Assembly (NCBI GenBank): GCA_029247785.1
Contig: JAQWKP010000340.1
Span: forward strand, 1 to 37,269
Origin: Novosphingobium sp.
Lineage (GTDB): Bacteria; Pseudomonadota; Alphaproteobacteria; Sphingomonadales; Sphingomonadaceae
Direction of reading: 5' to 3'
DNA: 37,269 nucleotides
In this document: piece by piece, positions 10,164 through 33,304 of the stretch
Position numbering within the stretch: position 1 is the stretch's first letter
Layout of the letters: each line of letters starts with the position of its first letter
Translations under genes and position numbers: made by a program
The notes under the pieces: model-generated
What the model was told of the DNA's origin: nothing
Databases searched by the model: none
Seen by the model: the letters and a program-made list of their open reading frames with translations, nothing else

Positions 10164-11543
10164 GTGAAGCTAGCGACGAGAAACGAGCAGGTGACTGGAA
10201 CGCTGGCCAAACTCGTAGTCCTGCTCGCTCTCCTTTTGTTCAGCTCAAAGATGGTCTCAGCTGCGACAGAAACTTCCACCCGCTTCGAAGGCGTGGCGAG
10301 CTGTGCGGGCTCTACTTGTCACGGGCGCAACGAAGGTGACGGCAAGGTGGTGCGCCAGGATGAACTGAGAATCTGGCAGGAACCCTCAAGCAAGGCTGGT
10401 GCACATAGCCGGGCATTCAGCGTCCTCGCCAGCCAGCGCGGCCAGCGCATTGCTTCCGCACTCGACCTCGGAAAAGCGACCTCCGCAACGGAGTGCCTTG
10501 GTTGCCATTCGACTTTTGTGCCAACTGAACGGCGAGGCGAGCGCTTCCTCCTATCGGACGGTGTCGGCTGCGAATCTTGCCACGGTGCAGGCTCCGGCTG
10601 GCTTTCCGGACACTATGCCGTTCCGGCAACCCACACGTCGAACGTCGCTGCCGGCTTGCAGGAACTCAATCACCCGCAAGTCCGTGCGTCGGTTTGCCTC
10701 GACTGCCATTTCGGAAGCGACAGACAGGGACAATTTGTTACCCATGCCATGATGGCGGCTGGCCATCCGCGTATTTCGTTCGAGTTGGACTTGTTCTCAG
10801 CCATGCAGCAACATTACAACTTCGACACCGACTACAAGCGTCGCAAGTCCACGCCGGACGCCCTACAACTCTGGGCGGTCGGCCAAGCTGAAGCCGTGAA
10901 ACGCTCCACCCGGCTGTTCGGCAATGCCAAGCTGGCTACCGAGGGCATCTTTCCGCAGTATTACTTCTTCGACTGCCACAGCTGCCATCGCCAGATCACC
11001 GATAACCCGACTGCCAACCGCCGGTTCGAGACCAATCCGGGCCGACCGATGCCGTTCGGCTTGGCACCATACAATGACGAGAATATCATTATACTGTCGG
11101 CGGTGTCCAAAGTCCTGGCCCCCGGCCAGGCATCACGCTTCGATGCTGCCAGCCGCAAGTTCCACTCTGCGATAGGTCAGGGGCGCTCACAGGCCGTTGC
11201 GGCGGCACGCCAGCTCAATGCGGCAGCTGATGCGCTCTCCGATGCCCTTGCCGTGCGGGGCTTTGCCGGAGGCACCGCATTTAGTGTCATCGAGGCGATC
11301 AGCAGCAAGGCAATCTCGCCCCGCTTTACCGATTATGCAGGGTCCGTTCAGGCAGTCATGGCTATCGACACGCTACTCAATTCTCTCGTGAAGGATGGAC
11401 GCGTCACGATCGGTGCAGCGGCAGGGATTCGAGCCGACATCAACCGCGCCTATGCTGCTGTTGGCAGCCCAGAACGCTATAGCCCCTCGCAATTCCGGGC
11501 GGCGCTCGGCCGCGCTTCTCGCAGCATCGGAGCGCTTAACTAA
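10164..11543 (+). CDS. Cytochrome c554-like multiheme c-type cytochrome (4 CXXCH + 1 CX4CH)
   Basis: 459 aa, GTG start with GGGAG SD-like motif upstream, signal-like N-terminus; heme motifs CAGSTCH (CX4CH), CLGCH, CESCH, CLDCH, CHSCH. Confidence 0.88.
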   Translation: MKLATRNEQVTGTLAKLVVLLALLLFSSKMVSAATETSTRFEGVASCAGSTCHGRNEGDGKVVRQDELRIWQEPSSKAGAHSRAFSVLASQRGQRIASALDLGKATSATECLGCHSTFVPTERRGERFLLSDGVGCESCHGAGSGWLSGHYAVPATHTSNVAAGLQELNHPQVRASVCLDCHFGSDRQGQFVTHAMMAAGHPRISFELDLFSAMQQHYNFDTDYKRRKSTPDALQLWAVGQAEAVKRSTRLFGNAKLATEGIFPQYYFFDCHSCHRQITDNPTANRRFETNPGRPMPFGLAPYNDENIIILSAVSKVLAPGQASRFDAASRKFHSAIGQGRSQAVAAARQLNAAADALSDALAVRGFAGGTAFSVIEAISSKAISPRFTDYAGSVQAVMAIDTLLNSLVKDGRVTIGAAAGIRADINRAYAAVGSPERYSPSQFRAALGRASRSIGALN

Positions 11544-13525
11544 TGCGCAAGTTGCCAGGATATATTTCAAGTGCGGCGCTTTCTCTGTTGGTAGCCTGCA
11601 GCGGCGGGTCAACGCCATCTGGTGGCGGATCATTCGGGACCGGAACGCCTTCACCAACCCCTACGCCCGCAGCAGCGGGCAGCTACTCGATACCTGCGAC
11701 CGAGGCCCTCACCGTCGTCGATGTGCGACGGATCATCGCTCAGGCCGTCGGTGAAGCACAGGCTCAGAACCTTCCGTCGATCATTGCCGTGGTCGACCGT
11801 GTCGGAAATGTGCTGGCCGTCTTCAGCATGAACGGCGCTCGCCCGGACATGGTGACCAGCCGGCTCACTGCCACTGGCGTTATCAACAATCCCAATGTCG
11901 ACGCCCAAGGTCTGAATGTTCCGGCAACACTGGGGGCCATCGCCAAAGCTGTCACCGGGGCGTATCTATCAAGCGGCGGCAATGCCTTTTCCACCAGGAC
12001 TGCTAGTCAGATCGTCCAAGCTAATTTTCCGCCTGCCCCCAATACAGTCGGTCTCGAGAGCGGTCCGCTTTCCGGTGTGCAGTTCAGCCAACTGCCTTGT
12101 TCCGATCTCAACACTCGTTTCAAGGCGGGGGCCGCCACCGATGCGTTGATCGGCCCCAAACGGTCGCCGCTTGGGCTTGCGGCAGACCCTGGTGGTCTGC
12201 CGCTCTACAAGAATGGTGTGATCGTTGGCGGAATCGGCGTGATGGGTGACGGTGATTACGGTCTAGACCCCAATACACTCGATATCGATAGCGATGCTGA
12301 AGAACACATCGCTCTTGCCGGCATTCAGGGATTTGCGCCGCCTGAAACGATCACGGCGGACAAGATCACAGTCGACGGCACCAGCCTGCGGTTCAGCGAT
12401 GCCAAAGCTGCAAGCCTTTCCCCGCTCCAGACCAGTTTCGCCGTGGTGAACGGCTCGGCAGGACAGTTGATCGCCGTCAATGGATATACCAACGGCACCA
12501 TGATCGCGGGCACTGCTTATGGGACCGAAGCCAGCGGCTTCAGGAAGGCGGCCGGCGGGGACTTCGCCTTCTCCGATGCCTTCGTGTTGAGCAACGGCGC
12601 TGGCGGCAATCGTTTTCCGATCAAGGCCGGGACTGACGGAGTCGATGTCAGCCAGCCACTCACCGCTGCAGAAGTCCGCGCAATCCTTGAAGAAGCCTTC
12701 AAGCTCATGCGTCGCTCACGGGCCCAGATTCGTCGTCCACTTGACAGCCGGGCAGAGGTGACCGTCAGTCTCGTCGACACCTATGGCGCGGTGCTCGGTG
12801 TCGTCCGCTCACCCGACGCCCCAATCTTCGGAACCGACGTCTCGCTGCAGAAAGCGCGCACCGTCGGCTTTTTCTCGAACCCGATCGCAGCCCAGCAGCT
12901 TCTCAATAACCCGGACGCGGAAATTCCCGCATTCGTCCAGCGTACTCGAACATTCTTTGGCGATCCCACTGCCCTGAGCGGCAAGGTCGCGTTCGGCGCC
13001 AGGGCGATCGGCAATATCGCGCGACCGCACTTCCCCGATGGTGAAGCGGCTCAACCTGAGGGACCATTCTCACGACCTATTGAGGATTTCAATCCATTCG
13101 CCACCGGCCTGCAAGTCGCACTCGTCGCCTCTAATCTGGTGCAACACGCAAATTTTGTTAGCGGTCAACCAGGAGCCAGCGACACCGCCCAGCAGTGCAC
13201 GAATGTCCCGCCTGCGCCTTCGGGCCAGAGCCGGCTCGCAAACGGCATGCAGATATTCTCCGGAGGCGTTCCAATATACCGCAACGGAGTGATCGTCGGC
13301 GCGATCGGCGTCTCCGGCGACGGCATCGACCAAGACGACATGATCAGCTTCCTTGGCGTCGATCTTGGCGGCAAGAGAGTCGGTTCGATCGGCAACGCGC
13401 CCTCGGCGATCCGGTCGGACAAAGTCGTGATCAATGTCGGTGCCGGAGTGCGTCTACGCTACGTTAACTGCCCGTTCGCGCCATTCCTCGATTCGGCTGA
13501 ACAGAACGTCTGCGCGGGTCTGTGA
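11543..13525 (+). CDS. Lipoprotein with two GlcG/HbpS (DUF336-like) heme-binding-type domains
   Basis: 660 aa; lipobox LLVAC at the N-terminus; two copies of the family pattern (VVDRVGNVLAVFSMNGA ... GGLPLYKNGVIVGGIGVMGDGD and LVDTYGAVLGVVRSPDA ... GGVPIYRNGVIVGAIGVSGDG). TAATG overlap with the preceding gene. Confidence 0.82.
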   Translation: MRKLPGYISSAALSLLVACSGGSTPSGGGSFGTGTPSPTPTPAAAGSYSIPATEALTVVDVRRIIAQAVGEAQAQNLPSIIAVVDRVGNVLAVFSMNGARPDMVTSRLTATGVINNPNVDAQGLNVPATLGAIAKAVTGAYLSSGGNAFSTRTASQIVQANFPPAPNTVGLESGPLSGVQFSQLPCSDLNTRFKAGAATDALIGPKRSPLGLAADPGGLPLYKNGVIVGGIGVMGDGDYGLDPNTLDIDSDAEEHIALAGIQGFAPPETITADKITVDGTSLRFSDAKAASLSPLQTSFAVVNGSAGQLIAVNGYTNGTMIAGTAYGTEASGFRKAAGGDFAFSDAFVLSNGAGGNRFPIKAGTDGVDVSQPLTAAEVRAILEEAFKLMRRSRAQIRRPLDSRAEVTVSLVDTYGAVLGVVRSPDAPIFGTDVSLQKARTVGFFSNPIAAQQLLNNPDAEIPAFVQRTRTFFGDPTALSGKVAFGARAIGNIARPHFPDGEAAQPEGPFSRPIEDFNPFATGLQVALVASNLVQHANFVSGQPGASDTAQQCTNVPPAPSGQSRLANGMQIFSGGVPIYRNGVIVGAIGVSGDGIDQDDMISFLGVDLGGKRVGSIGNAPSAIRSDKVVINVGAGVRLRYVNCPFAPFLDSAEQNVCAGL

Positions 13526-13526
13526 A

Positions 13527-15548
13527 ATGCCGATAGCGTCACTGCTCGTTCCAATGTTACTGGCCCAGCCTATAGCCGGAGCGGCCGCAGGGGATCTTAC
13601 TACGTCGGAGAAGCTTGCACGAGAGACGAGCGAGAGCGCTCCGGATGACGACGCTGACTGGGTGGGGTGCATCGTCGAGACAGACCAGAACATCATTTGT
13701 CCGCCAGGCGTTGAAGAAGCTCCCGACACGGTCGACCCCGGATTACTTGAGGGACGCCGCCGGCCTGGCCTTGAAGCCGCCCTTCCCGAACGCGTTACCC
13801 AAGACAATCCCGGCGCCGTCCGCGCCCCACCGCCTGAGGCCTTTCCCGTGGATCAGGTACCCATTCCAGACCGCTGGCGGCTGATTCAATCGCTAGGCCT
13901 GGTTAAGGAGCGCTGGTTCGATCCTTACAACCAGAACACATACAAAGGCGACCGACCGATTTGCATCCCTACCGAGGATGAGCAAGAAAGGCGGATGGCT
14001 CTGCGCGAGGCCGCGCGAGCCGAAGGCAAAAAGCCGCCCTATGGAAGCGCGCCATGCCTTACACCAAAATTCCTGGGCTTGACTGGGGATGACTGGTTCT
14101 TCGCTGCCAACCTTGTTTCAGACACGGTTTTCGAACCCCGCACATTCCCCATACCTGTCGGGCTGCAAACCACCACCCGGCCGGACACGCTCGACCTCTT
14201 CGGCAAGGATGCGAGCATGGTATTCTCGCAAACCTTCATCGCCGGCCTCGCTCTGATCAAGGGTCAGACTGCCTTCAAGCCTCCCGATGTAGAGTATCGG
14301 GTGACGCTGGCGTACAACGTAAATTATGTAAATGTACCTGAACGGCGCGTGCTGTTCGTCGAACCATCCAAGCCCTCGCAGCGCACCGACCATTTTCTGG
14401 GAGTCCAGGAAGCCTTCATCGATTATCACATCCGCAACACCTCTGACCGTTACGACTTCGATTCGATTCGTGTTGGCATCCAGCCGTTCCAGGCCGATTT
14501 CCGCGGCTTTCTGTTCAATGACAACCAGTTGGGCATCCGCCTGTTTGGCACCCGGGATAACAATCGATTCCAATTCAACGTCGGGGCATTCTGGCGACTG
14601 GAGAAGGACACCAACAGCGGCCTCAATGCGATTCTGCAAAAACCTCGCAAGGACTGGGTGCTCTATGCAAATCTGTATCGGCAAGATTTCCTGATCCCGA
14701 GCCTAACCAGCCAGATAACCGTGGTCTACAACCGCAACCGCGAAGGCAACCAGATCGAGATCGACGATAATGGCTTTACGGTCCGGCCGGCCCTGATTGG
14801 CGATCTTCGAGGACGTGAGTATGATGTCGTTTATCTCGGCTACAACGCCGACGGGCATATCGGGCGCATCAACTTGACCGCATCGGCCTATGCGGCGCTG
14901 GGCAAAGACCGGAACAGCATCTTCACCAGCGAGCCTGCCAATATCCGTGCATTTTTCGGCGCCGCCGAACTGAGTTATGACCGCGCATGGATGCGATTCA
15001 GGCTATCGGCACTCTATGCGTCAGGTGATGGCGATCCTTACGACAACAAGGAAACTGGCTTCGACGCGATTTTCGAGAATCCGGTCTTCGCCGGCGCCGA
15101 CACCAGCTACTGGATCCGCCAGACGATTCCGTTCGCTGGCGGCGGCCGGGCCGTTTCTGTCAACGGTCGCAACGGTATTCTTAATTCCCTTCGCTCGTCC
15201 AAAGAGCAGGGCCAATCCAACTTTAACAATCCGGGAACGATGCTTCTGGGCGTTGGCGGCGATTTTGACCTGACCCCGGAATTTCGCCTGTCGGTCAACG
15301 CCAACCACCTCTGGTTCGAAAACACATCCTCGCTGCAAGCGCTGCGCAATGAAGGCAGCATTCCCAAGGATATCGGCTATGATCTATCTCTTTCGGCAAT
15401 CTGGCGCCCGAAAGCGACGCAGAACATCGTCGCTCGCTTGTCCGCAGCCGCCCTACTCCCCGGCAAGGGCTTCCGCGACTTGTTTGACAACCAGAACGGG
15501 AACCGGAACTACTATTCGATTCTCGCCAACGTGATATTCACATACTGA
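13527..15548 (+). CDS. Outer-membrane beta-barrel/porin-like protein
   Basis: The ORF opens at 13434, but ATG at 13527 gives MPIASLLVPMLLAQPIAGAAAGD (signal-like) directly after the upstream stop; many amphipathic strand-like segments and a terminal aromatic strand (NRNYYSILANVIFTY). Confidence 0.75.
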   Translation: MPIASLLVPMLLAQPIAGAAAGDLTTSEKLARETSESAPDDDADWVGCIVETDQNIICPPGVEEAPDTVDPGLLEGRRRPGLEAALPERVTQDNPGAVRAPPPEAFPVDQVPIPDRWRLIQSLGLVKERWFDPYNQNTYKGDRPICIPTEDEQERRMALREAARAEGKKPPYGSAPCLTPKFLGLTGDDWFFAANLVSDTVFEPRTFPIPVGLQTTTRPDTLDLFGKDASMVFSQTFIAGLALIKGQTAFKPPDVEYRVTLAYNVNYVNVPERRVLFVEPSKPSQRTDHFLGVQEAFIDYHIRNTSDRYDFDSIRVGIQPFQADFRGFLFNDNQLGIRLFGTRDNNRFQFNVGAFWRLEKDTNSGLNAILQKPRKDWVLYANLYRQDFLIPSLTSQITVVYNRNREGNQIEIDDNGFTVRPALIGDLRGREYDVVYLGYNADGHIGRINLTASAYAALGKDRNSIFTSEPANIRAFFGAAELSYDRAWMRFRLSALYASGDGDPYDNKETGFDAIFENPVFAGADTSYWIRQTIPFAGGGRAVSVNGRNGILNSLRSSKEQGQSNFNNPGTMLLGVGGDFDLTPEFRLSVNANHLWFENTSSLQALRNEGSIPKDIGYDLSLSAIWRPKATQNIVARLSAAALLPGKGFRDLFDNQNGNRNYYSILANVIFTY

Positions 15549-18500
15549 TGCGGCTGCTGCGCTTCCTCCTTGTCTTGATTGCGATCCTTATGGTCGCGGT
15601 GCCGTCGGCCCAAATCCTGGCGAGCGACGATGAAATGACGGTTGAGCGCGACTATTCGCTGGTAACCGCGCCGCCCGCTCCGGCCAGGCAGTCCGTTGCA
15701 GATGTCCGGATGAAATCGGAAGGCTGCCTGAGCTGCCACGTCGAGACCGATTCGGCCAGCATGCACGCCACGCCTGCGGTCCGGCTTGGCTGCACCGATT
15801 GCCACGGCGGCAACGCCACCATCAAAGGCAATCCCGAACTAGGCTTTTCCCATCCCGACTATGTCGCGGCGCGCGATGCTGGCCATGTCCTACCGAAATA
15901 TCCGGAAAGCTGGCACTTCCCGACTTCAGCCAACCCCAAGCGCGGCTACACCCTGCTCAACAAGGAAGCGCCCGAATTCGTCCGTTTCGTCAATCCCGGC
16001 GACTATCGTATCGCCCGCGAATCCTGCGGTGCCTGCCACCTCCCCGTTATCGAGGCTGCTGAACGCTCGCTAATGGCATCAGGCGCGATGCTTTGGGGCG
16101 GGGCCGCCTATAATAACGGCATTATCCCTTTCAAGAACTACGTCCTAGGGGAAGCCTACACACGCGAGGGTGAGCCAGCCAAGATAATTTCCCCTGGCTC
16201 ACCTGCCGGCACCCTGACAGCTGAGCAGCAGGCGCGCGGAGCCCTGGCAGCACTGTATCCGCTGCCCCGCTGGAATGTCATCCCGCCGGGAGACGTGTTT
16301 CGCGTCTTTGAACGCGGGGGTCGCAATATAAACTCGCAGTTCCCGGAAATCGGGCTGCCGAACCCGTCAGGCCAGATTCAGCGGCTCGAGGAGCCAGGGC
16401 GGCCCGACCTCAAGCAGTCGAACCGAGGTCCCGGCACAGGCCTGAGAGTCGCTATCCCGGCGCTCAACATCCACAAGACTCGGCTCAACGACCCTTTCAC
16501 CTGGTTCATGGGCACCAATGACCAGCCCGGCGACTACCGCAGCTCAGGCTGCACCTCATGCCATGTCATCTACGCGAATGACCGAGAGCCGCGGCACAGC
16601 CTGATCTATGCATCGCTAGGGCGGGATGGGCAGACGATCACAAAGGACCCCACTATCGCGGCCAAGCTGGAACCTGCTCAAAGCAACGATCACGGTGATG
16701 GCCAGAATGCGATGCCCCACGATAGCGACGACCGCGGCAAGACCCCGGGGCACGGCGACGGGCACAACTCGGACGGCAAGGCCAAAGAAAAAGGCCATCC
16801 CCTCCAGCATATCTTCACTCGCGCCATTCCAACGGCCCAGTGCATGAATTGCCACATGCATCAGCCTAACGTCTTCGTGAATCCCTATCTTGGCTACACT
16901 ATGTGGGACTATGAATCCGACGCGCCGAAAATGTGGCCCGGCCCTGAAAATGAAACGCCCCGGCCCGAAGGGATCAGCGACGAAGAATACCAAAGAGTAT
17001 ATAAGCAGCAGCGCTTTCCCACTGCCGAGGAAGTGCGTGCCATAAATGAGCGCAATCCCGAAGCCGCCGCAGCGAAGGGCCTATGGGGCGATATCGATTT
17101 CCTGCGCAACGTCTATGACCTCAACCCCGAGCTCAAGGACACGCAGTTCGCGGACTATCACGGCCATGGCTGGAATTTTCGTGCCGTTCTGAAGCGCGAC
17201 CGCGATGGCAACCTGCTCGATGCCGATGGCAATATCGTCGACCCCGACGATCCGGAGAAATGGCGCCGCAAGGATGAGGGCAAATTCGTCGAAGTGGGCA
17301 AAAATCCGGGCAAGACCGTCCACATGATGGATATCCATGCTGAAAAAGGGCTGCAATGCGCGGACTGCCATTTCGCGCAGGACAGCCATGGCAACGGACT
17401 TATCTACGGCGAAGTAGCCAATGCCGTCGAAATCGGCTGTAAGGATTGTCACGGCACTGCCGACGCATATCCGACCCTGCTAACATCGGGACCGGCGGCG
17501 CCCCCGACTGGCAATGACCTGACCCTGCTGCGCAATCCCGATGGCGAGCGCCGCTTCGAATGGCGCGAGGAACCATCCGGACGCAGGACGCTGATCCAGC
17601 GCTCGATCATCGATCCAGGCCTGCAGTGGGAAGTCAGCCTTGTCAGGAATTCGGTTGACGCTGCTTCGCCCGATTTCAACTCCAAATCAGCGCGCGCAAA
17701 GCTGATAAGCACGGCCGGAGCAGATGACGGCAATTATGCTTTCGGCCCCGGCATCACGGTGGAAAATCGCGCCCACAAGGATGACGAGATGGCCTGTTTC
17801 ACTTGCCATCTGTCATGGACAACGAGCTGCGGTGGCTGCCACTTGCCGATCGAGGCGAACTGGCAAACCTCGATGCACCACTATGAGGGCGAGACGACAC
17901 GCAATTTCGCAACCTACAACCCACAGGTTGCGCGCGACCAAATGTTCCAGCTGGGCAAGCACATGACGACCAAGGGCAGTCAAGTTGCGCCGATTCGTTC
18001 GACCTCGGCGCTCGTGCTGTCCTCGACCAACATCAACCGCGAACGGATCTATGTGCAGCAGCCGCCAATCTCGTCCTCGGGCTTTTCCAGCCAGGCATTC
18101 GCACCTCACTTCCCGCACACAGTTCGTAAGACGGAGACCAAGGCTTGCACCGATTGCCATCTCAGCGCCGATGAAGACAACAATGCGATTATGGCGCAGT
18201 TGCTGCTGCTCGGCACCAATTTTGTCAATTTTGTCGGCATCAACGCCTGGGTCGGGCTCGATGGTGGCTTTGAGGCCATACGGGTGACCGAATGGGACGA
18301 ACCGCAAGCAGTGCTTGGCTCTTACCTGCACCGCTATGCCTATCCCGACTACTATCGCCTGCATGTCGAGAAGAACGGGCGCGAGCTGAAGAATTGGGTG
18401 CGGGGCAAGTATTTTGATGGCAGCGCTTCCGGCGAAACCAAGGCGATCGAGCAATTCCGCAATGTCGTGCAGGGCACGCGTGGCGCCGTGGGCTGTCTGC

Positions 18501-19711
18501 AGATGCGCGGCGAATATATGTTCGTTGCCGAAGGCAAGGGCGGTTTGCACGTCTATGATATTGCCTCGGTCGGCAACAAGGGCATTTCCGACCCGGTCTT
18601 CAGCGCGCCTTTCTCCCCGCTCGGCCATGACACTCGGGTCAAGACCAGCAATGCCACCTGTATGGCGCTTGCAACTAACCAGCCTGTCGCACCCGACCGT
18701 AGTCGCGCCATGGATGCCACCGAGATGATGGACAGCGACGGCAATCCGATCATCCAGGAAGACGGCACTCCGCTGACTTTGCTTGAGGCCAACCAGGAGC
18801 AGAAATTTCTGCCGATTTATGATTACGCTGTCATCACTGACAGTGAAGAGGGCCTGATCCTTGTCGACATCAACACCATGGCGGACGGCGAATTCCGCAA
18901 CAACAAGCTCAAGCGTGCGGCGACCTGGAATCCAGACAAAGTACTCGCGGGCGCGCGCCACATCACCCTGGCCGGCGAAATCGCTTACGTCACTGCAAAT
19001 GCCGGACTCGTCGTTGTCGACCTCACCGACCCGCTCAATCCCGTGCTCGCCTCGGTCCAACCGCTAAGAGATGCCCGCGCAAGCGCAGTGCAGTTCCGCT
19101 ACCTTTGGGTGACAGACGCTGAGGGATTAAAGCTGTTCGACGTTACTGATCTGCGCAGACCGGTCGCCGTTCCATCGGGCACGGTCTCGCTAGCCGACGC
19201 GCGCCGAATCTATCTCGCGCGCACCTACGCATATGTCGCTGCGAAGCAGGACGGGTTGGTGATCGTCGACGTAACTCAACCTGGATCGCCGAATATATAC
19301 GAGAAGGTTACTCTGGGCGGACGGCTCAACGACGCCGAGGACGTGATCGTCGGTTCGACAAACGCTACCCTCTTCGCATATGTCGCCGACGGCAGAAACG
19401 GACTCAAGGTCCTGCAGCTGACCTCGCCATCGACCCAGCCTAATTTCTACGGCTTCTCACCCGCGCCGAAACCGCAGCTAATCGCCTGGGCAAAAACGCC
19501 TTCGCCGGCGCGAGCGCTGTCCAAGGGGCTTGATCGTGACCGGGCGGTCGATGAAACAGGCGGCCAAATGGCTATCTTTGGTCGCCTCGGATCGCGGCCC
19601 TTCACCCGACCGGAAATGGAAAAGCTGTTCCTCAACCGGCAGCGCGTGCCCTTCAAGGTCACCGACACAGTCGACATGTCGACATGGGTCCCGCTGCCCG
19701 CGCCGCAGTGA
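15548..19711 (+). CDS. Large decaheme c-type cytochrome with C-terminal LVIVD-repeat (beta-propeller-like) region
   Basis: 1387 aa; N-terminal signal-like MRLLRFLLVLIAILMVAVPSAQILA; ten CXXCH (CLSCH, CTDCH, CGACH, CTSCH, CMNCH, CADCH, CKDCH, CFTCH, CGGCH, CTDCH); C-terminal repeats such as GLVVVDLTDPLNP, GLKLFDVTDLRRP, GLVIVDVTQPGSP. Start overlaps the upstream stop (TGATG). Confidence 0.92.
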   Translation: MRLLRFLLVLIAILMVAVPSAQILASDDEMTVERDYSLVTAPPAPARQSVADVRMKSEGCLSCHVETDSASMHATPAVRLGCTDCHGGNATIKGNPELGFSHPDYVAARDAGHVLPKYPESWHFPTSANPKRGYTLLNKEAPEFVRFVNPGDYRIARESCGACHLPVIEAAERSLMASGAMLWGGAAYNNGIIPFKNYVLGEAYTREGEPAKIISPGSPAGTLTAEQQARGALAALYPLPRWNVIPPGDVFRVFERGGRNINSQFPEIGLPNPSGQIQRLEEPGRPDLKQSNRGPGTGLRVAIPALNIHKTRLNDPFTWFMGTNDQPGDYRSSGCTSCHVIYANDREPRHSLIYASLGRDGQTITKDPTIAAKLEPAQSNDHGDGQNAMPHDSDDRGKTPGHGDGHNSDGKAKEKGHPLQHIFTRAIPTAQCMNCHMHQPNVFVNPYLGYTMWDYESDAPKMWPGPENETPRPEGISDEEYQRVYKQQRFPTAEEVRAINERNPEAAAAKGLWGDIDFLRNVYDLNPELKDTQFADYHGHGWNFRAVLKRDRDGNLLDADGNIVDPDDPEKWRRKDEGKFVEVGKNPGKTVHMMDIHAEKGLQCADCHFAQDSHGNGLIYGEVANAVEIGCKDCHGTADAYPTLLTSGPAAPPTGNDLTLLRNPDGERRFEWREEPSGRRTLIQRSIIDPGLQWEVSLVRNSVDAASPDFNSKSARAKLISTAGADDGNYAFGPGITVENRAHKDDEMACFTCHLSWTTSCGGCHLPIEANWQTSMHHYEGETTRNFATYNPQVARDQMFQLGKHMTTKGSQVAPIRSTSALVLSSTNINRERIYVQQPPISSSGFSSQAFAPHFPHTVRKTETKACTDCHLSADEDNNAIMAQLLLLGTNFVNFVGINAWVGLDGGFEAIRVTEWDEPQAVLGSYLHRYAYPDYYRLHVEKNGRELKNWVRGKYFDGSASGETKAIEQFRNVVQGTRGAVGCLQMRGEYMFVAEGKGGLHVYDIASVGNKGISDPVFSAPFSPLGHDTRVKTSNATCMALATNQPVAPDRSRAMDATEMMDSDGNPIIQEDGTPLTLLEANQEQKFLPIYDYAVITDSEEGLILVDINTMADGEFRNNKLKRAATWNPDKVLAGARHITLAGEIAYVTANAGLVVVDLTDPLNPVLASVQPLRDARASAVQFRYLWVTDAEGLKLFDVTDLRRPVAVPSGTVSLADARRIYLARTYAYVAAKQDGLVIVDVTQPGSPNIYEKVTLGGRLNDAEDVIVGSTNATLFAYVADGRNGLKVLQLTSPSTQPNFYGFSPAPKPQLIAWAKTPSPARALSKGLDRDRAVDETGGQMAIFGRLGSRPFTRPEMEKLFLNRQRVPFKVTDTVDMSTWVPLPAPQ

Positions 19712-20707: not shown

Positions 20708-21562
20708 TCAGCCAAGTCCCCGGCGCTCTTCGTCGATATGCTTGACGATTTCCTGCAGGGATTTGTCAAAGCGAGCGAAAACGCGGTGGTCATCGACGGC
20801 TTCGAAATGGGAGATCAGGCGTTCGCCATCCCAGTGATGCAATGCGTAAACCGGGTATTCGTCGGTAATCATTGCGCGCTTGTCAGGTTTTTTGGGGTTG
20901 ATAGGCCTCAAATCGAGAGCGACGAGCGGCGCGGTCGAGGCGCAGACTGTTAACGGCACTCCATTCCACAATGCGTGGATGTTGCGATGAAGGTGTCCGC
21001 TAAGGATCGCCTGAACTTGGCCATGACCGGCGATACTATCGGCAAACCTCTTCATCCAGGGCTCATTGGCGTTACCATCAAGCCAGCTGATTCCCGATTC
21101 GAACGGCGGATGATGCATCGCAATGATCGTCGGCGTATTCGGATGGGCGGCGAGCTCAGATTGCAGCCAGGCCGCACGAGCCTCACAGAATGCACCGCCA
21201 TGCCGCCCTGGCTCAAGCGTATCGAGCAGAAGGACCCGCGCGTCCTCGGCTTCGATCGCAAATTGGATGAAGCTCTCATTGCTGGGCGTGTCAGGAAAGG
21301 CGGCCAGCATGGCATCACGATCATCATGGTTGCCGACCATCGGCCAGACCGGAAACGGGCAGATATCAACAGCCTCGGCGAGTCGCTTATAGCTTGGAGC
21401 ATCGCCAAATTCGGTGAGATCGCCTGTCATCACGAGCGCGTCGGGTGCGTTGGGCGCATCGACAAGCCTCTGGATAACCGCCTCGAGGCGTTCCATGTTG
21501 TATTCGTCCGGGTTTCCCTGGTCAAAACCGATATGAACGTCAGTGATCTGTGCGATCAGCAA
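20708..21562 (-). CDS. CpdA-like metallophosphoesterase (candidate 3',5'-cyclic nucleotide phosphodiesterase)
   Basis: 284 aa; MLIAQITDVHIGF, VMTGDLTEFG, MVGNHDDRD, AMHHPPFESG, ILSGHLHRNIH are the metal-ligand motifs of class III cyclic nucleotide phosphodiesterases. Confidence 0.87.
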   Translation of the reverse strand: MLIAQITDVHIGFDQGNPDEYNMERLEAVIQRLVDAPNAPDALVMTGDLTEFGDAPSYKRLAEAVDICPFPVWPMVGNHDDRDAMLAAFPDTPSNESFIQFAIEAEDARVLLLDTLEPGRHGGAFCEARAAWLQSELAAHPNTPTIIAMHHPPFESGISWLDGNANEPWMKRFADSIAGHGQVQAILSGHLHRNIHALWNGVPLTVCASTAPLVALDLRPINPKKPDKRAMITDEYPVYALHHWDGERLISHFEAVDDHRVFARFDKSLQEIVKHIDEERRGLG

Positions 21563-21616: not shown

Positions 21617-23356
21617 TCAGCCTTGTTCTTTGGCCCGAGAATTCCGCTTTCTGTCGGTTGTATCCACCGCTCCTTGTCCCGTCATGTGATAACCATGGCA
21701 CATAATACAACTCGACGGCACTTTTGCTTTCACCGTGTCTTCGCCGAGATGGCATTGACGGCAGTCCTTGATGCCTGGAAGCAGCAGGTCCTTTGCGCTG
21801 GTTGATGTTGGCGCCGCGTGGCAACTCGTGCAATCCTCTTGCTTATGGGCTGCGTGGTCAAACCAACCATGGTCCATGTACCGAGATACAAGTGTCACTG
21901 GCTGCACACCGATCTTGCCATCGGCGCGCGATGCGGGTCTGTGACATTCCCCACAAATTCCATCTTTCGACAAGGCTATCCCGACTTTCAATCCTTTCCA
22001 TGCCGCACCAGAGAAATTGAAATGATAGGGTCGGCCCTGCGCGTAATCGCCTGGCCGGCGGCGCGCTGAAATGGACTGCCGCCTGAAATCCCCCGCGCTT
22101 AGATCCGCGATCACCTGATCGACATCGCCATGCCTTAGCTTGCGGAAAATGCCACCAACCTGATCATAAGTCAGGCTGTGACAGGCCTCACAATCCCGCT
22201 CCATGTCGATTTTCTGGAAGCGAATTCCGTCCTCTGTCGGCCTGTGACAGTCCTTGCATTGCAGTCCGCCCGCGCCGTAACCGGCCTCACTGCCAATATT
22301 CGCCGCCATTCGCGCAACCCCGCCCTTTGTCCGGAGATGAAGTTTATGCGGAAATGTCAGGCCACTGTCTTCCCGCGGACGCCTGTCCAGCGAAACGCGG
22401 ACCGGCTTGCCGATGGTGGAATCGGTGATAATGGCCGGCGCGAACTGCGGATGCTGGCTACCGAAATCAACTGCTTCGCCGAGGCTGGTATCGGGCAAGT
22501 TCTCCTTGAGCATGCCATGGCAGTCTGCACAAAATGCCTGAGGCGCCGGCTCCATGAACCGATTGCCCTCATGCTCTGTATGGCAGTCCGCGCAGGCTCC
22601 CGGACCTTCCTTCCCAAATGCATGAGCGACGGACCGGAGGAGCTTAGTTCCCAGCGGCCTGCTTCCGTGTGCCGCGTCCAGCCGGGTTAAGTCGGCATGG
22701 TCATGCAGATCGGTGTGACAGGACTTGCAGGTTTCATCCCTCACCGATTCGAAAGCGCGAACATGGCAGGTTTCACACTGATCCTTCAGACCGTGATGGG
22801 CGAGGCTCAGATCGCCGGAGCTCCAGCTGGAATCGCCAATAACCTGCTGCTTGGCCTCGACATCGCGTGTGACGTGGCTGACGATCGGAACAGCAAGAAA
22901 CGACAAGAGTATGAATGCAGCCAGGGCCCACGACATGACGCGCTTGCTCGGCAGTACGCCCGCCAGCGAGAAGCCTAGCTTCTGTTCTAGATCGCCCGAC
23001 TTTGTGGCTGAGTCCTCGACCTGCCTGACAGTCAGCAGAACATCATCGGCGTCGGCAGAGATGGTGATGCGATATGTGCCGAAGCCGAGTTCGCCACCAC
23101 CGCTCCTATCAATTGTGGCTTGTGACGTTTCGACGCCGTCGAGCGAAAACCCCAGCGTGCCGGTCGCCTCGACACTTAGCCTGCCCCCCCCATGCTCAGT
23201 GATAGTCGCGTGCTGCGGCTCGATCGCGAGGTCGGGCAAGTGAATCCCATTCTCTGCCGCCCGTCCGACAGACACGCTCGATCCGGCATGTTCATAGTCT
23301 CGAACAATCTCGCGACCGGTAGCCGTGAACTCGACCGTCCTGAGTTTGAATGCCAT
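21617..23356 (-). CDS. FHA domain - transmembrane helix - decaheme cytochrome c fusion protein
   Basis: 579 aa; N-terminal FHA pattern SVGRAAENGIHLPDLAIEPQHATITEHGGG, single TM VMSWALAAFILLSFLAVPIVSHVT, then ten CXXCH (CETCH, CKSCH, CADCH x2, CKDCH, CEACH, CGECH, CTSCH, CRQCH, CIMCH). Confidence 0.9.
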   Translation of the reverse strand: MAFKLRTVEFTATGREIVRDYEHAGSSVSVGRAAENGIHLPDLAIEPQHATITEHGGGRLSVEATGTLGFSLDGVETSQATIDRSGGGELGFGTYRITISADADDVLLTVRQVEDSATKSGDLEQKLGFSLAGVLPSKRVMSWALAAFILLSFLAVPIVSHVTRDVEAKQQVIGDSSWSSGDLSLAHHGLKDQCETCHVRAFESVRDETCKSCHTDLHDHADLTRLDAAHGSRPLGTKLLRSVAHAFGKEGPGACADCHTEHEGNRFMEPAPQAFCADCHGMLKENLPDTSLGEAVDFGSQHPQFAPAIITDSTIGKPVRVSLDRRPREDSGLTFPHKLHLRTKGGVARMAANIGSEAGYGAGGLQCKDCHRPTEDGIRFQKIDMERDCEACHSLTYDQVGGIFRKLRHGDVDQVIADLSAGDFRRQSISARRRPGDYAQGRPYHFNFSGAAWKGLKVGIALSKDGICGECHRPASRADGKIGVQPVTLVSRYMDHGWFDHAAHKQEDCTSCHAAPTSTSAKDLLLPGIKDCRQCHLGEDTVKAKVPSSCIMCHGYHMTGQGAVDTTDRKRNSRAKEQG

Positions 23357-23371: not shown

Positions 23372-24235
23372 CTACCAGTAGTAGAGCACGCTGATGACGT
23401 GCGCGAGAAGCGCGGCTATCAGTGCGATCGTCGCTGGAACGTGAATGTAGAGCCAAACCTCCAGCATTCCCCTTAGTCGCATCTGTCGCCGGATTCGTTC
23501 AAGCTGCGCCTTGCGCCGAACCATGAGCTTTTCGACCCGATCCATAGCGGTGTCGGAAGAATCAGAACCGGCCAGTCCCTCGATAGCAGCCTGCGTTGCA
23601 CAATCTGGATGGTTGCCGGATAGCCTTCGAAATAGGCCATGGTCGAGAGGATCTTCCGCAAGGGCCTCAAGCACAAGGTCGGCCTGCACCCGGGCAAGCG
23701 GCTGCGCTGCATCGTGGAGCTGACGATCGAGCGACGTGATGGCGTCAACCATTTGCCCTTGAGTCATTTCCTCCCGGTTGCTGCTGAGCGCGCTTGGCAA
23801 GGTCGCATACAAATAGGTCCCGAATACTCCTGACAGGATCACCAGCATCATCATGGCATAGGCTAAGGTATGTACGTTCCAGCCCAACTGAAAGCCGGTG
23901 TGCAGCGTGGCAATTACGATAAGCGAGAGCCCGAGATAAACATGGGCCGACGTCCAGGCTTTGAGCGACCAGTTGCCCTGCGTGATCATTCGCTTGCGAA
24001 TACCCAGAAGCGAAAGCCAGAGGATTAGAAGGGCTCCGATCGTACCCAGAATATAGCCGATCCAGCTCCCCCCGTTCGGGCGTGGCTCGACATCCGCCAA
24101 CAGGTAGGCAATCAATGATACGACGCTGGCGCCAAGCGCAATCTTCAGCCAACGAAAGCTCCTGTGACGCAGGAAGCTTTCATGGCTGCCCGGGCCGCCG
24201 CGCGCCCTGTTTGCAGTGTGAGGCTTGGTGGCCAT
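23372..24235 (-). CDS. Putative b-type heme membrane protein (cytochrome b561/ferric-reductase-like)
   Basis: 287 aa, about five TM segments; spaced histidines in TM segments (SAHVYLGLSLIVIATLHTGF, NVHTLAYAMMM, WLYIHVPATIALIAALLAHVISVLYYW) around a soluble helical insert; TGATG overlap with the upstream gene. Confidence 0.7.
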   Translation of the reverse strand: MATKPHTANRARGGPGSHESFLRHRSFRWLKIALGASVVSLIAYLLADVEPRPNGGSWIGYILGTIGALLILWLSLLGIRKRMITQGNWSLKAWTSAHVYLGLSLIVIATLHTGFQLGWNVHTLAYAMMMLVILSGVFGTYLYATLPSALSSNREEMTQGQMVDAITSLDRQLHDAAQPLARVQADLVLEALAEDPLDHGLFRRLSGNHPDCATQAAIEGLAGSDSSDTAMDRVEKLMVRRKAQLERIRRQMRLRGMLEVWLYIHVPATIALIAALLAHVISVLYYW

Positions 24236-26682
24236 CAGGCGTCTTCACTCATGCGCGTAGCTGAAAGGAAGCCCTCTGGCGAAACGCGGATTGCTGCACC
24301 CGTAGGGCAGGCGCGAACGCACGATGGGCCGCCATCGATACCCGAGCACATGTCGCATTTGATGGCGCGCTTGGGACTTTCTTCGCCTTCAATAATATTC
24401 TTCTTGCGCCAGCTCTTGGTTGGCTCACCAGGGCCGGGCCCCTTGCCCAGAAATAGCCAATTCAGCAGAGAAGGCTTGGCCGGCGGTACACTGTCCATGC
24501 GGATCACCCCATAGGGACAGTTTCTCTGACAATTGCCGCATCCGATGCAGGTCTCGTCGATGAAGACTTCTCCGTCGATGCCGCGCTGGATCGCGTTGGG
24601 TGGGCAGTCGGCCATGCAATGCGGGTGTTCGCAATGACGGCAGCTGGTCGGAACGTGAAGATGCGCATAGGTCGTACCCGCCTCGCGATCGAGGCGCGAG
24701 AGACCGTCATGACTATCCGCGCATGCCTTTTCACAATTGTCGCAGCCTACACAGAGCGTTTCGTCAATCAGCAGGACGTCCGTCGCCTCGCCGATGCCGT
24801 TGTCGACAAGGAATTGGGCGGTCTGCGAATACATATCGACGACGCCGGAAAAATTCTCCTTGCGGCTTTCAATGAACGTGTTGACCTCCCTGCGTTTTTC
24901 CATTTCCACCTGGGCCTTGCGGAGCAAGTCTGGCTCGCGTTCAAGCAGGCGGACAAAGGCATCGCCAGGCAGCCTGATGACCTCGGATTTGATCGCCGCG
25001 CGCACCGTCGCGTTGCGGGGCGCACCGTCGATAACGCCCATTTCCCCAACATAAGAGCCAGCAGGCAAATAGCTTAGAAACACTGGCTTGCCGGCAATCT
25101 CGCGCTCGACGATCATCGAGCCGCGGCGGATGATATAGATATCCTCCCCCATCTCGCCTTCCTGAAGGACGACCTCGCCAGCCCGCTTGTTCTGCACTTC
25201 CGCGCCCTCAACCAGTTCGGCGACATCCTCCTTGGTAAGTCCCGAGCCAAATATCTGGAGCAATTGCCGTTCGATCGAGATCCGGTTGACCGCCCGCGCA
25301 GCGCTCGGAACCGTCGCGATCAATTTGAGCGCCGCAGTACGCAACAGCTCGACAACTACAAGGTCCTCGGCCGCACGGATCGTTGCGCCTCGGCGCCTAC
25401 CCGAGATCAGGCCGACTTCGCCGAAAATCGAGCCTTCCTCGATCGGAACGGTAATCGAAGGGTCTTCCTTGTTGACCTCGACCAGCACCGAGCCTTGCGC
25501 GATGGCAAATAGCGAAGAGCCGGGCGCATTGCGGTCGAAAACCGCGTCCCCGCGAGAAAAGCTTTTCACTCGGCTGTCGATCAGCAATTCGCGAAGTTGC
25601 AGAGGCGAGAGTTCCTTGAATATCTCGATGTTACTGCCAAACAGATCAAGCCACTCGGCGACACTCCGGCTGCCTGGCAGCGCAGCAAATTTTTCAGTCA
25701 GGATCGGCTCGTCTGCGGGCTTGAGCGTCGTATTGCCATTGAGAAATTCTACGACATCATAGCCCTGATTCATACAGTGCTTGATCAGCGGGTAGCCAGC
25801 CAGCGCACCGATGACATGGATCCCTGAACGGGTCGTCTCGAACACTGGCGAGAGTACCGGAAAGGCTTCGCGTTCCTCGCTGGTGAATTCAATGTCGCAG
25901 CCCTCGACGAAACTGCGCGGCGGCGCCGAGCCGGTTCGGGCGATAATCCGCCCACACTCGATGGTTTCCTGCCCGTCGCGTGTGTCGAGCACGAGCTTTC
26001 CTTCGCGAACCTCGGCAGGCGTCGTCTCGGTCCTCACATGCACACGGCCGGCCGCTCCTGCCTCCTTCAGCAATTCGACATTGGCCTTCTTCGCACGCGC
26101 GAATTCCGGGCTGCGGTTGAGGATCGTGACCACGTTGCGCTGCGCTGGATCGGCGGCAAGGCCAAGCGCGTTCTCGATTCCGGCGTCGCCCGATCCAACC
26201 ACAGTGATATGTTCGTCAATATACTCGGTCGGATCGTCGAGCTGGTACTGGATATGTGGCGAGTCAGCGCCGTCGCAACGCAGCTTGTTGGGATTGCCCT
26301 GGGTTCCGATCGCGAGAATGACGGCTTCGGCTTCGATAGTGTCTCCGCCTTTGAGCTGGAGAGTGAAATTGCCCTTCTCGCCGTCGATGCCGACAACATC
26401 CGCGTTGTAGCGGACGGCAATCTTGTTAGTCTCGGCCTGCTCGTCCCAAATTCCGAGAATGGTCTCGCGGCTGCCCGCGTCGAAATCGAGGTCAGACCTG
26501 AGGACCAGCATGGATGGCGTCGCCATGACGTGCTTGCCCTTCTGGTACTTGTAGATCGTGTCCGACAGGTGGTCGGTCTTTTCCAGCAACACGTGCGCAA
26601 TGCCAAGCTCGGCAGCGCGGCCAGCAGCGCTCAACCCCGCCGGACCAGATCCGACTATGGCAATCCGAACGCGTACTTCCAC
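24235..26682 (-). CDS. FAD/NAD(P)-dependent oxidoreductase fused to two cyclic-nucleotide-binding domains and a 4x[4Fe-4S] ferredoxin (HycB/DmsB-like) domain
   Basis: 815 aa; Rossmann IAIVGSGPAGLSAAGRAAELG; second Rossmann ITVVGSGDAGIENALGLA; two cNMP-type segments (GSVLVEVNKEDPSITVPIEEGSIFGEVGLISGRRRGATIRAAED and GSMIVEREIAGKPVFLSYLPAGSYVGEMGVIDGAPRNATVRA); Fe-S motifs CVGCDNCEKAC, CRHCEHPHCMADCP, CIGCGNCQRNCP, CDMC...CVRACP. Confidence 0.92.
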   Translation of the reverse strand: MEVRVRIAIVGSGPAGLSAAGRAAELGIAHVLLEKTDHLSDTIYKYQKGKHVMATPSMLVLRSDLDFDAGSRETILGIWDEQAETNKIAVRYNADVVGIDGEKGNFTLQLKGGDTIEAEAVILAIGTQGNPNKLRCDGADSPHIQYQLDDPTEYIDEHITVVGSGDAGIENALGLAADPAQRNVVTILNRSPEFARAKKANVELLKEAGAAGRVHVRTETTPAEVREGKLVLDTRDGQETIECGRIIARTGSAPPRSFVEGCDIEFTSEEREAFPVLSPVFETTRSGIHVIGALAGYPLIKHCMNQGYDVVEFLNGNTTLKPADEPILTEKFAALPGSRSVAEWLDLFGSNIEIFKELSPLQLRELLIDSRVKSFSRGDAVFDRNAPGSSLFAIAQGSVLVEVNKEDPSITVPIEEGSIFGEVGLISGRRRGATIRAAEDLVVVELLRTAALKLIATVPSAARAVNRISIERQLLQIFGSGLTKEDVAELVEGAEVQNKRAGEVVLQEGEMGEDIYIIRRGSMIVEREIAGKPVFLSYLPAGSYVGEMGVIDGAPRNATVRAAIKSEVIRLPGDAFVRLLEREPDLLRKAQVEMEKRREVNTFIESRKENFSGVVDMYSQTAQFLVDNGIGEATDVLLIDETLCVGCDNCEKACADSHDGLSRLDREAGTTYAHLHVPTSCRHCEHPHCMADCPPNAIQRGIDGEVFIDETCIGCGNCQRNCPYGVIRMDSVPPAKPSLLNWLFLGKGPGPGEPTKSWRKKNIIEGEESPKRAIKCDMCSGIDGGPSCVRACPTGAAIRVSPEGFLSATRMSEDA

Positions 26683-26802: not shown

Positions 26803-27729
26803 ATGACACAACATACAACCCGACCTTACCCGATTGCCCGGATCGCATTGATCGTCGCTGCGCTGGCAGCGGCATTTGCGGTGGGATTTACGATCTCGAG
26901 AAGCGCGGATGAGGGTGGCACCAGCGACCTCACTGTTCCCGATGCCGTCTCCACAGTAGCGTCGGTTTCAAGCCTGGAGGAAAAAACCAAGGCAAATCCC
27001 GAAAACGCACCCGCCTGGCTGGAGCTAGGCCAGGCCTATTTTGTCGATAGCCGGTTCGCAGACGCAGCGCGGGCCTATGACAAGGCGACCGCCCTCGTTC
27101 CGGACGACGCGATGGCGTGGTCGGCGCTCGGCGAGGCGCGGGTCATGGCAAGCGAGCGTGATCCGATGCCAGCCGAGGCGCTCGCCGCATTCAAGCGCGC
27201 CATCGCCCTCGATAGCAAGGAGCCACGAGCACGGTATTTTCTCGCCGTCAAACGGGACCTTGATGGAGACCACGAGGGGGCCATCGCTGACTGGCTCGCC
27301 GTGCTTATGGACACACCCGAGAACGCTCCCTGGCGCGGCGACTTGATCCGCACGGTCGAGCAGGTCGGCAAGATCAACGGGATCGACGTCGCCGCTCGCC
27401 TCGCAAAGGCCGGCGCGCAATCCCCTCCCGCACCGCCCATGCCTGCGGCAGCGCGCGCCATACCCGGGCCCTCGGCGCAGGACCTTGCAGCGGCTTCGCA
27501 AATCCCGCCGGGCGAGCAGCGCGAAATGGCCGAAGGCATGGTCGCGCGGCTGGAAAGCCGTCTCAAGGGCGACCCCGCCAATGTCGACGGGTGGCTGATG
27601 CTGATCCGCAGCCGGGCAACGCTTGGCCAGAAGGACAAGGCGAGCCAGGCGCTCAAGGACGCAGCAGCAGCTAACCCGGCACAAGCGGCCGCGATTCGCC
27701 AGCAGGCCGCGACGCTCGGCGTGAAGTGA
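26803..27729 (+). CDS. CcmI/NrfG-like TPR protein, putative cytochrome c biogenesis factor
   Basis: The ORF opens at 26038 but that part is antisense to the reductase gene; ATG at 26803 gives a TM anchor (IARIALIVAALAAAFAVGFTI) plus TPRs and C-terminal AASQIPPGEQREMAEGMVARLESRLKGDPANVDGWLMLIRSRATLGQKDKASQAL, a CcmI-like region. Confidence 0.83.
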   Translation: MTQHTTRPYPIARIALIVAALAAAFAVGFTISRSADEGGTSDLTVPDAVSTVASVSSLEEKTKANPENAPAWLELGQAYFVDSRFADAARAYDKATALVPDDAMAWSALGEARVMASERDPMPAEALAAFKRAIALDSKEPRARYFLAVKRDLDGDHEGAIADWLAVLMDTPENAPWRGDLIRTVEQVGKINGIDVAARLAKAGAQSPPAPPMPAAARAIPGPSAQDLAAASQIPPGEQREMAEGMVARLESRLKGDPANVDGWLMLIRSRATLGQKDKASQALKDAAAANPAQAAAIRQQAATLGVK

Positions 27730-28206
27730 CGCGCGCCTCAGGAACTTCACTCGCAGTCAGGCAATCCCGCGTCAAAGTGCCGGGTTTGCAGTGGATATAA
27801 CTACTCGAACTTCACCCGTATGAAGCATGGAAAGAGCTTTGGGAAACGCCTGCGGCATTGCCAATTTTTCGGCAAAATTAGAATGGTTTACGACGATGTG
27901 AAAGAGCGGCCCTCTACATCGCAAATGTCATTCGTGTAGGAAAGCCTTTCGACCCGCGCTACGGTACCGTGACGTGCTCCGCCACAAGAGGGGGATTATC
28001 TTGAGCATGGCATCCAAAATCTGCCTGAACCGACGGTGTGCCAGACGCTATGGAACACGCTGAAGGTTTGTGCGACTGCTTTGGCAAGAATGAGTGACAC
28101 CGCAGGCATCAACCAGGCGTCACGGTCGGCGCCGTTCAGTTTTCGGTTTGGTCGAGAGTCGGATTGCAATTGATGCTTTTTGCTTTGCGAGGGCCTTCGC
28201 TTTACG

Positions 28207-30702: not shown

Positions 30703-32058
30703 TCACACAACTCCGAAGGCCAGCATCGCGTCAGCAACCTTCTTGAAGCCGGCAATATTGGCGCCCTTGACGTAATCGACATAGCCGCCGCCCATATCAC
30801 CATAAGTCAGGCAGCGTTCGTGGATGCCGGACATGATGTCCTTGAGCATTTGCTGCAATTCGTCCTCGCTCCATGAGCGGCGCTCGGAATTCTGGCTCAT
30901 CTCGAGCCCGGAGACTGCAACGCCTCCGGCATTGGCCGCCTTGCCCGGCGCGAACATGATCTTCGCATCCTTGAACACATGCACCGCTTCCAGGTCCGAA
31001 GGCATGTTCGCGCCTTCCGACACCGCGATGCAGCCATTGGCGACCAGCGCCCTTGCGTCATCGCCGAGCAGCTCGTTCTGGGTGGCGCAAGGTAGCGCGA
31101 GGTCGCAATCGACATTCCACGGCGTATTGCCCTCATGGAATGTCGCGCCCTTGAACTCGTCGGCATATTCGCTGATCCGACCGCGACGCTCATTCTTGAG
31201 CTGCTTGATCCAATTGATCTTTTCCTGGGTCAGCCCATCGGGATCGTGAATGAAGCCACCCGAATCGGACATCGTCAGCGGCTTGCCGCCGAGCTGGACG
31301 ATCTTTTCCGCGGCATGGGTCGCGACATTGCCAGAGCCGGATATCACCGCGCTCTTGCCTTCAATGCTATCACCCTTGGCTGTCAGCATATTCGACATGA
31401 AATAGACCGCGCCATAGCCGGTTGCCTCGGGCCGGATCAGCGAACCGCCGAATTCCAGGCCCTTGCCGGTCAACACGCCAGTGAACTGGTTGGTGATCCG
31501 CTTGTACTGGCCGAACATGAAGCCGATTTCGCGCCCGCCAACGCCGATATCGCCGGCAGGAACGTCAACGTCGGCACCAATGTGTCGATACAGCTCGGTC
31601 ATGAAGGACTGGCAGAACCGCATGATCTCACGCTCGGATTTGCCCTTGGGATTGAAATTGGCACCGCCCTTGCCGCCGCCCATCGGCAGGCCGGTCAGCG
31701 CGTTCTTGAACGTCTGCTCGAAGGCGAGGAATTTCAGCACGCTTTCAGTAACGCTGGGATGAAAACGGATGCCGCCCTTATAGGGCCCGATCGCATTGTT
31801 GTTCTGCACGCGCCAGCCGCGCTGCACGCGGATATTGCCCTTGTCATCCTCCCAGCAAACCCGGAAAGACATCACCCGATCAGGTTCGGCGATCCTGCGC
31901 AGGATCTGCTGCTCGTGATAATCTTCCTTGTCGGCGATGAAGTCGAAGATGTCCTCGGCCACTTCCTGCACGGCCTGAACGAATTCGGGCTGATATGCAT
32001 TGCGGCGCTTCACACCATCCATGAAACCGTTGAAGTCGACATGATCGGATACCGCCAT
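30703..32058 (-). CDS. gdhA: NADP-specific glutamate dehydrogenase
   Basis: 451 aa; FRVCWEDDKGNIRVQRGWRVQNNNAIGPYKGGIRFHPSV, LPMGGGKGGANFNPKGKSE, VPAGDIGVGGREIGFMFGQYKRI. Confidence 0.97.
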   Translation of the reverse strand: MAVSDHVDFNGFMDGVKRRNAYQPEFVQAVQEVAEDIFDFIADKEDYHEQQILRRIAEPDRVMSFRVCWEDDKGNIRVQRGWRVQNNNAIGPYKGGIRFHPSVTESVLKFLAFEQTFKNALTGLPMGGGKGGANFNPKGKSEREIMRFCQSFMTELYRHIGADVDVPAGDIGVGGREIGFMFGQYKRITNQFTGVLTGKGLEFGGSLIRPEATGYGAVYFMSNMLTAKGDSIEGKSAVISGSGNVATHAAEKIVQLGGKPLTMSDSGGFIHDPDGLTQEKINWIKQLKNERRGRISEYADEFKGATFHEGNTPWNVDCDLALPCATQNELLGDDARALVANGCIAVSEGANMPSDLEAVHVFKDAKIMFAPGKAANAGGVAVSGLEMSQNSERRSWSEDELQQMLKDIMSGIHERCLTYGDMGGGYVDYVKGANIAGFKKVADAMLAFGVV

Positions 32059-33301: not shown

Positions 33302-33304
33302 CGA

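Follow-up and report, generated by a model that had tools for sequence, protein, structure and literature searches.

What is a decaheme cytochrome that ends in a β-propeller for, and where in the cell envelope does it work? The question is posed by a gene of Novosphingobium sp. (Sphingomonadaceae; assembly GCA_029247785.1), on contig JAQWKP010000340.1. The window analyzed here is positions 1 to 37,269 of its forward strand (37,269 nucleotides), and all coordinates refer to it. An open reading frame (ORF) at 15548–19711 (+) encodes a 1387-aa decaheme c-type cytochrome with a predicted C-terminal β-propeller of LVIVD repeats, hereafter MHC-LVIVD. With moderate confidence, we propose that a conserved trans-envelope electron conduit ends at the outer membrane in MHC-LVIVD; the conduit would be fed by NAD(P)H and would use the propeller as a docking platform.

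A decaheme cytochrome with a predicted propeller

The initial annotation of this ORF had recognized ten CXXCH motifs and an LVIVD region, and motif count, Pfam and alignment bear it out. The motifs begin at residues 60, 82, 160, 335, 432, 604, 631, 750, 761 and 867 and define a heme-binding region of residues 60–871 (15725–18160, +); shuffled copies of the protein contained 0.0085 on average and 1 at most. Pfam matches above cut-off are to the LVIVD, Cytochrome_C554, C7 and c3 families. Every Cys and His of the ten motifs is identical in all 97 aligned relatives, which argues that the motifs are under selection. In the same 97 sequences further His are invariant, at 73, 113, 417, 421, 438, 538, 540, 592, 597, 614, 743, 854, 857 and 1138, and these can be proposed from the alignment as distal heme ligands. 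Between hemes 4 and 5 lies a poorly conserved Asp/His/Gly-rich insert of 42 residues (~372–413; 16661–16786, +), at which the tblastn matches of many relatives break. Hydropathy peaks at residues 3–24 and marks a plain N-terminal Sec-type signal sequence without a lipobox (residues ~1–26, cleavage site inferred; 15548–15625, +), so that several CXXCH sit in an exported protein, as in multiheme c-type cytochromes. No conserved Cys stands ahead of heme 1 in the relatives and hence no conserved lipobox. Besides the signal, the sole strongly hydrophobic stretch is a conserved segment between heme 10 and the propeller, IMAQLLLLGTNFVNFVGIN (18185–18241, residues ~880–898).

The C-terminal part belongs to the Pfam LVIVD family (PF08309; E=5.9e-19, 67.6 bits against a cut-off of 20.2), with motif units GLHVYDI at 999, GLILVDI at 1102, GLVVVDL at 1153, GLKLFDV at 1193, GLVIVDV at 1236 and GLKVLQL at 1285. 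AlphaFold was run on a 1200-aa fragment of a relative (L028) that is 79% identical to the corresponding fragment from the window, and it returned the propeller fold that had been anticipated, with seven blades. Mean predicted local distance difference test (pLDDT) scores of ten-residue blocks are largely 85–97, and lower in some loops, over model residues 780–1189, which map to window residues ~897–1330 (18236–19537, +). The region is thus C-terminal, as first described, but the limits given for it then (18.8–19.45 kb) do not hold, since the predicted propeller fills 18236–19537 and the hemes reach residue 871. Compared with solved structures, the L028 propeller model matches PpgL (Z 29.8, root-mean-square deviation (rmsd) 2.7, 297 aligned), the archaeal YVTN surface-layer propeller 1l0q (Z 28.9, rmsd 2.2, 274 aligned) and a designed seven-bladed propeller (Z 28.7), and its Foldseek matches include cytochrome cd1. 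From the model, we have high confidence that the C-terminal part is a seven-bladed β-propeller, a fold which, being common to known propellers, gives no function for MHC-LVIVD. The heme part of the same model is mostly below pLDDT 50, and heme geometry cannot be read from it. Sequence searches against solved structures gave nothing useful for MHC-LVIVD or, among the neighbors described below, for the FHA cytochrome and the transmembrane (TM) protein.

Conservation is lower in the propeller core, which also carries a variable insert, than in the heme motifs, as might be expected if MHC-LVIVD were an ordinary periplasmic electron-storage cytochrome with the propeller as a leftover or anchoring domain. 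We consider this very improbable. Within the propeller, Cys983 and Cys1038 are an invariant pair in the 97 sequences, and distant relatives keep the propeller region, this pair and a conserved tail (1290–1345); that MHC-LVIVD strictly co-occurs with the barrel and the inner module described below also speaks against a storage role. The propeller may instead be a docking or substrate-binding domain.

A conserved operon places the cytochrome next to a predicted barrel

The gene directly upstream (13527–15548, +; start inferred) encodes a predicted outer-membrane β-barrel of ~18 strands with an AlgE/OprD-like fold, as judged by AlphaFold, Foldseek and VIA-align, and its stop codon shares one base with the start of MHC-LVIVD. 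The AlphaFold model aligns with AlgE at Z 22.6 (rmsd 3.6, 366 aligned), and relatives end in the aromatic C-terminus of outer-membrane proteins (OMPs), L-x-N-x-[IVL]-x-[FY]. Among the matches listed for the barrel model in the PDB structure comparison there is no MtrB-type chain, which excludes nothing. One barrel loop of ~55 residues (~545–598 of the 704-aa ORF starting at 13434) is near-invariant although modeled with low confidence, and it may project into the barrel lumen and touch the cytochrome.

Ahead of the barrel lie a c554-type five-heme c-type cytochrome (10164–11543, +; one CX4CH and four CXXCH, all Cys invariant) and a lipoprotein with HbpS-like (PF03928) domains (11543–13525, +), which has a lipobox-like motif in 75 of 90 sequences and contains no CXXCH. 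The c554, HbpS and barrel genes precede MHC-LVIVD in 71–77 of the Sphingomonadales loci compared. Because the propeller is confidently predicted on a relative and the gene directly follows a predicted barrel in a conserved operon, a terminal cytochrome with a propeller is the best reading. That much of the earlier proposal of a surface terminal cytochrome with a built-in propeller stands; its surface part lacks the lipobox and type II secretin that would support it.

An inner module co-occurs with MHC-LVIVD

Three genes on the opposite strand form an inner module. A decaheme cytochrome (21617–23356, −) combines an N-terminal FHA-like domain with one TM helix (residues ~138–164), on motif, Pfam and hydropathy evidence. 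The adjoining membrane protein (23372–24235, −) has, by alignment and hydropathy, invariant H98-x13-H112 and H265-x13-H279; from these two H-x13-H helices it is a probable di-heme cytochrome b. The third gene (24235–26682, −), identified by domain searches and alignment, encodes an oxidoreductase for flavin adenine dinucleotide (FAD) and pyridine nucleotide with two cyclic-nucleotide-binding (cNMP) domains and four [4Fe-4S] sites, its 16 invariant Cys falling into four ferredoxin-type groups. Next to the module is a SpdA/CpdA-like cyclic-nucleotide phosphodiesterase (20708–21562, −), a profile match below both curated cut-offs, whose gene was found in 59 relative loci and lies outside the cluster in most distant families.

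Among the Sphingomonadales loci compared, ~57 have the inner module along with the outer genes; of those without it, several are short contigs. About a dozen loci of other families in the Alphaproteobacteria have a single cluster oriented in one direction, which runs TM protein, FHA cytochrome, HbpS, barrel and MHC-LVIVD and is headed by the flavoprotein gene where the stretch extends that far. Of 199 genomes of the family Sphingomonadaceae, 72 have MHC-LVIVD; the FHA cytochrome occurs in 71, every one of them among these 72, and the sole genome with MHC-LVIVD alone is 67% complete. The shared genomes include some that have the two loci far from each other or on separate contigs. Presence is patchy over the genera sampled. 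In a sample of the class Alphaproteobacteria all 20 genomes with MHC-LVIVD have the FHA cytochrome, and six more have the latter alone; in a sample of the phylum Pseudomonadota (n=299) the five matching genomes are all alphaproteobacteria.

Three of the six genomes with the FHA cytochrome alone carry an alternative outer pair beside the same inner module (L138:12740–16161; L139:5771–9305; L141:9431–12731). It consists of a cytochrome of ~600 aa that has five CXXCH and a C-terminal part without hemes, and a protein of ~540 aa without a Pfam match that ends in Phe and is, from this C-terminus, a probable outer-membrane barrel. Because these genomes pair the inner module with a different cytochrome and barrel-like protein, the outer end looks exchangeable while the inner module stays. 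In a fourth genome (G025) the contig ends within HbpS, and an LVIVD gene may lie past the edge; the remaining two (G052, G258) have no outer pair within 20 kb.

A proposed model for electron transfer across the envelope

We propose a model in which electrons from NAD(P)H would enter the cytoplasmic flavoprotein and pass from FAD to the four [4Fe-4S] clusters. They would cross the inner membrane by way of the TM protein and its two putative b hemes to reach the ten c hemes of the FHA-anchored periplasmic cytochrome, and the five-heme cytochrome would probably relay them to MHC-LVIVD. With its own ten c hemes, MHC-LVIVD would dock on or thread the 18-stranded barrel and pass electrons to an acceptor. 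Joined just after heme 10, the propeller may be a rigid docking platform for that acceptor, for the barrel or for the HbpS-like lipoprotein. Cofactor types and topology suggest this order, and the pyridine-nucleotide flavoprotein at the cytoplasmic end suggests that flow is probably outward. One may speculate, from domain content and the neighboring phosphodiesterase alone, that electron input is gated by a cyclic nucleotide, given the tandem cNMP domains and the adjoining phosphodiesterase in many Sphingomonadales.

The opposite direction deserves consideration. PioAB and MtoAB porin-cytochrome pairs run inward, and by this precedent Fe(II), Mn(II) or other extracellular donors could be oxidized at MHC-LVIVD. 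The electrons would then either form NAD(P)H at the flavoprotein or go to quinone through the b-type protein, a supplementary supply from which common heterotrophic carrier genera could gain. We find such an inward conduit decidedly improbable, as the flavoprotein at the cytoplasmic end is soluble, uses pyridine nucleotide and has four iron–sulfur (FeS) sites, normally the mark of a low-potential electron donor, and the cluster showed no quinone-reducing module.

Several observations weigh against an outward conduit ending in MHC-LVIVD. Its putative surface exposure is backed neither by a conserved lipobox in the protein nor by a type II secretin (GspD) in the window genome. With its 18 strands the barrel is narrower than MtrB and might be unable to hold a heme chain; it may be no more than a porin that serves a periplasmic reductase. 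In several distant loci the five-heme cytochrome is on the other strand or elsewhere, and the formal p-value for co-occurrence with the FHA cytochrome, 6e-54, is too strong given shared ancestry.

In Shewanella, a type II secretin exports surface cytochromes. Here GspD is missing from the window genome and from 25 of the 72 carriers of MHC-LVIVD, and we therefore rejected surface export dependent on a type II secretion system (T2SS) as a requirement; overall, the secretin is associated with MHC-LVIVD (odds ratio 3.5).

The lack of a lipobox and of a T2SS would suit a periplasmic terminal reductase of a soluble substrate, with the barrel as substrate porin and the propeller as part of the enzyme, as in enzymes that combine propeller and cytochrome; one of these, cytochrome cd1, is among the Foldseek matches of the propeller. 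The barrel is similar to substrate-specific porins and to AlgE, and several of the invariant non-motif His could equally form a catalytic site. Yet ten CXXCH and many more invariant His suggest, at the level of motifs, a wire; a single enzyme has no obvious need for a five-heme and two ten-heme cytochromes and a dedicated barrel; and the alternative outer pair is likewise a cytochrome with a barrel-like protein. We regard the reductase as unlikely and retain the outward conduit as our preferred reading.

Relation to known conduits

The excerpt of PMC6148476 consulted defines outer-membrane electron conduits by structural criteria for those of Geobacter, and two of the three describe this locus. 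The FHA-decaheme and five-heme cytochromes are multiheme c-type cytochromes, periplasmic as judged from their signal and TM segments, and the barrel has an AlgE-like model with an OMP C-terminus. On the third, the features are split: the HbpS-like protein has a lipobox-like motif without CXXCH, and MHC-LVIVD has hemes without a conserved lipobox. As in ExtABCD, whose ExtB has 18 transmembrane domains, and in other putative conduits covered by that excerpt, multiheme cytochromes are encoded with an outer-membrane β-barrel and outer lipoproteins. In contrast to ExtABCD as presented there, where no LVIVD propeller is mentioned, the large cytochrome here is not a lipoprotein and the system brings its own flavin/FeS/b-type/FHA-decaheme input module. 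The Geobacter extHIJKLMNOPQS cluster likewise combines a porin, several multiheme cytochromes, an inner-membrane b-type cytochrome and an FeS protein, but the excerpt of its description (PMC5877670) gives no propeller, cNMP or FHA domain.

By NCBIfam models, MHC-LVIVD reaches none of the curated ExtM, ExtN and ExtO cut-offs; its match to ExtM (NF040943) is 60.1 bits against a cut-off of 800, around hemes 6–7, and does not make it an ExtM. MtrCAB, PioAB and MtoAB share a decaheme cytochrome and an outer-membrane barrel with this system, but MtrB is wider than the ~18-stranded barrel here. No NCBIfam match at E<=0.01 links the barrel to TIGR03509 (MtrB/PioB) or MHC-LVIVD to TIGR03508 (MtrA/DmsE), leaving the locus outside MtrCAB/PioAB; an MtrB/PioB search of the window genome found no match, and its control search likewise matched nowhere. 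From its sequences, the system appears to work like an outer-membrane electron conduit that is neither MtrCAB/PioAB nor ExtM by curated models.

LVIVD repeats are shared with surface propeller proteins such as those of Methanosarcina, as treated in the excerpt of PMC6315138, and a propeller is predicted here too. Sampled LVIVD loci of Pseudomonadota that do not belong to this family lack a CXXCH cluster in the stretch examined. We found no description of this system in the literature searched, outside which most subscription papers lie, and within that literature MHC-LVIVD would be the first multiheme cytochrome–LVIVD propeller fusion found.

Genomic surroundings

Beyond the inner module, a CcmH/NrfG-like TPR protein of the cytochrome c biogenesis type (26863–27729, +; start approximate) was identified by domain searches and relative loci. 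Anaerobic control is unsupported, because no FNR-type palindrome above chance was found upstream of the outer or inner module. Farther out are a sulfatase/phosphoethanolamine-transferase-like membrane protein (28180–30069, +) not found in the relative loci compared, and a glutamate dehydrogenase gene (30703–32058, −) that 28 relative loci also have near the module and that adjoins the module on a Sphingopyxis plasmid. VirB10-, VirB9- and VirB4-like type IV secretion genes follow (32213–37268, −), with a membrane protein among them (34150–35391). With these genes close by and the electron-transfer module also on Sphingobium and Sphingopyxis megaplasmids, there is a hint that the module has moved horizontally. 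Immediately ahead of the operon, pMSHV of Sphingobium herbicidovorans (L101:1–6686) encodes a secretion protein of the ShlB/FhaC type and has a hypothetical gene of 6.3 kb.

Implications

Extracellular electron transfer has been studied mainly in metal-respiring anaerobes, and the species that carry MHC-LVIVD are reputedly aerobic heterotrophs. Its relatives in the GTDB set number 531 and include common heterotrophic genera, among them Novosphingobium, Erythrobacter and Sphingobium. In a bolder and doubtful extension of our model, the 72 carriers among the 199 sampled family species would possess an extracellular electron conduit driven by NAD(P)H, gated by a cyclic nucleotide and exchangeable at its outer end, where the LVIVD propeller would act as a receptor on the surface and dock a specific partner, be it a mineral, humic matter, another cell or a soluble mediator. 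Hundreds of species genomes encode this conserved, putatively envelope-spanning wire, with its 25 c-type heme sites, 4 FeS sites, FAD and probable b hemes, and the tandem cNMP domains make second-messenger regulation of such a wire directly testable. If our proposal is true, heterotrophs that are common in soil and marine settings would have a new electron outlet.

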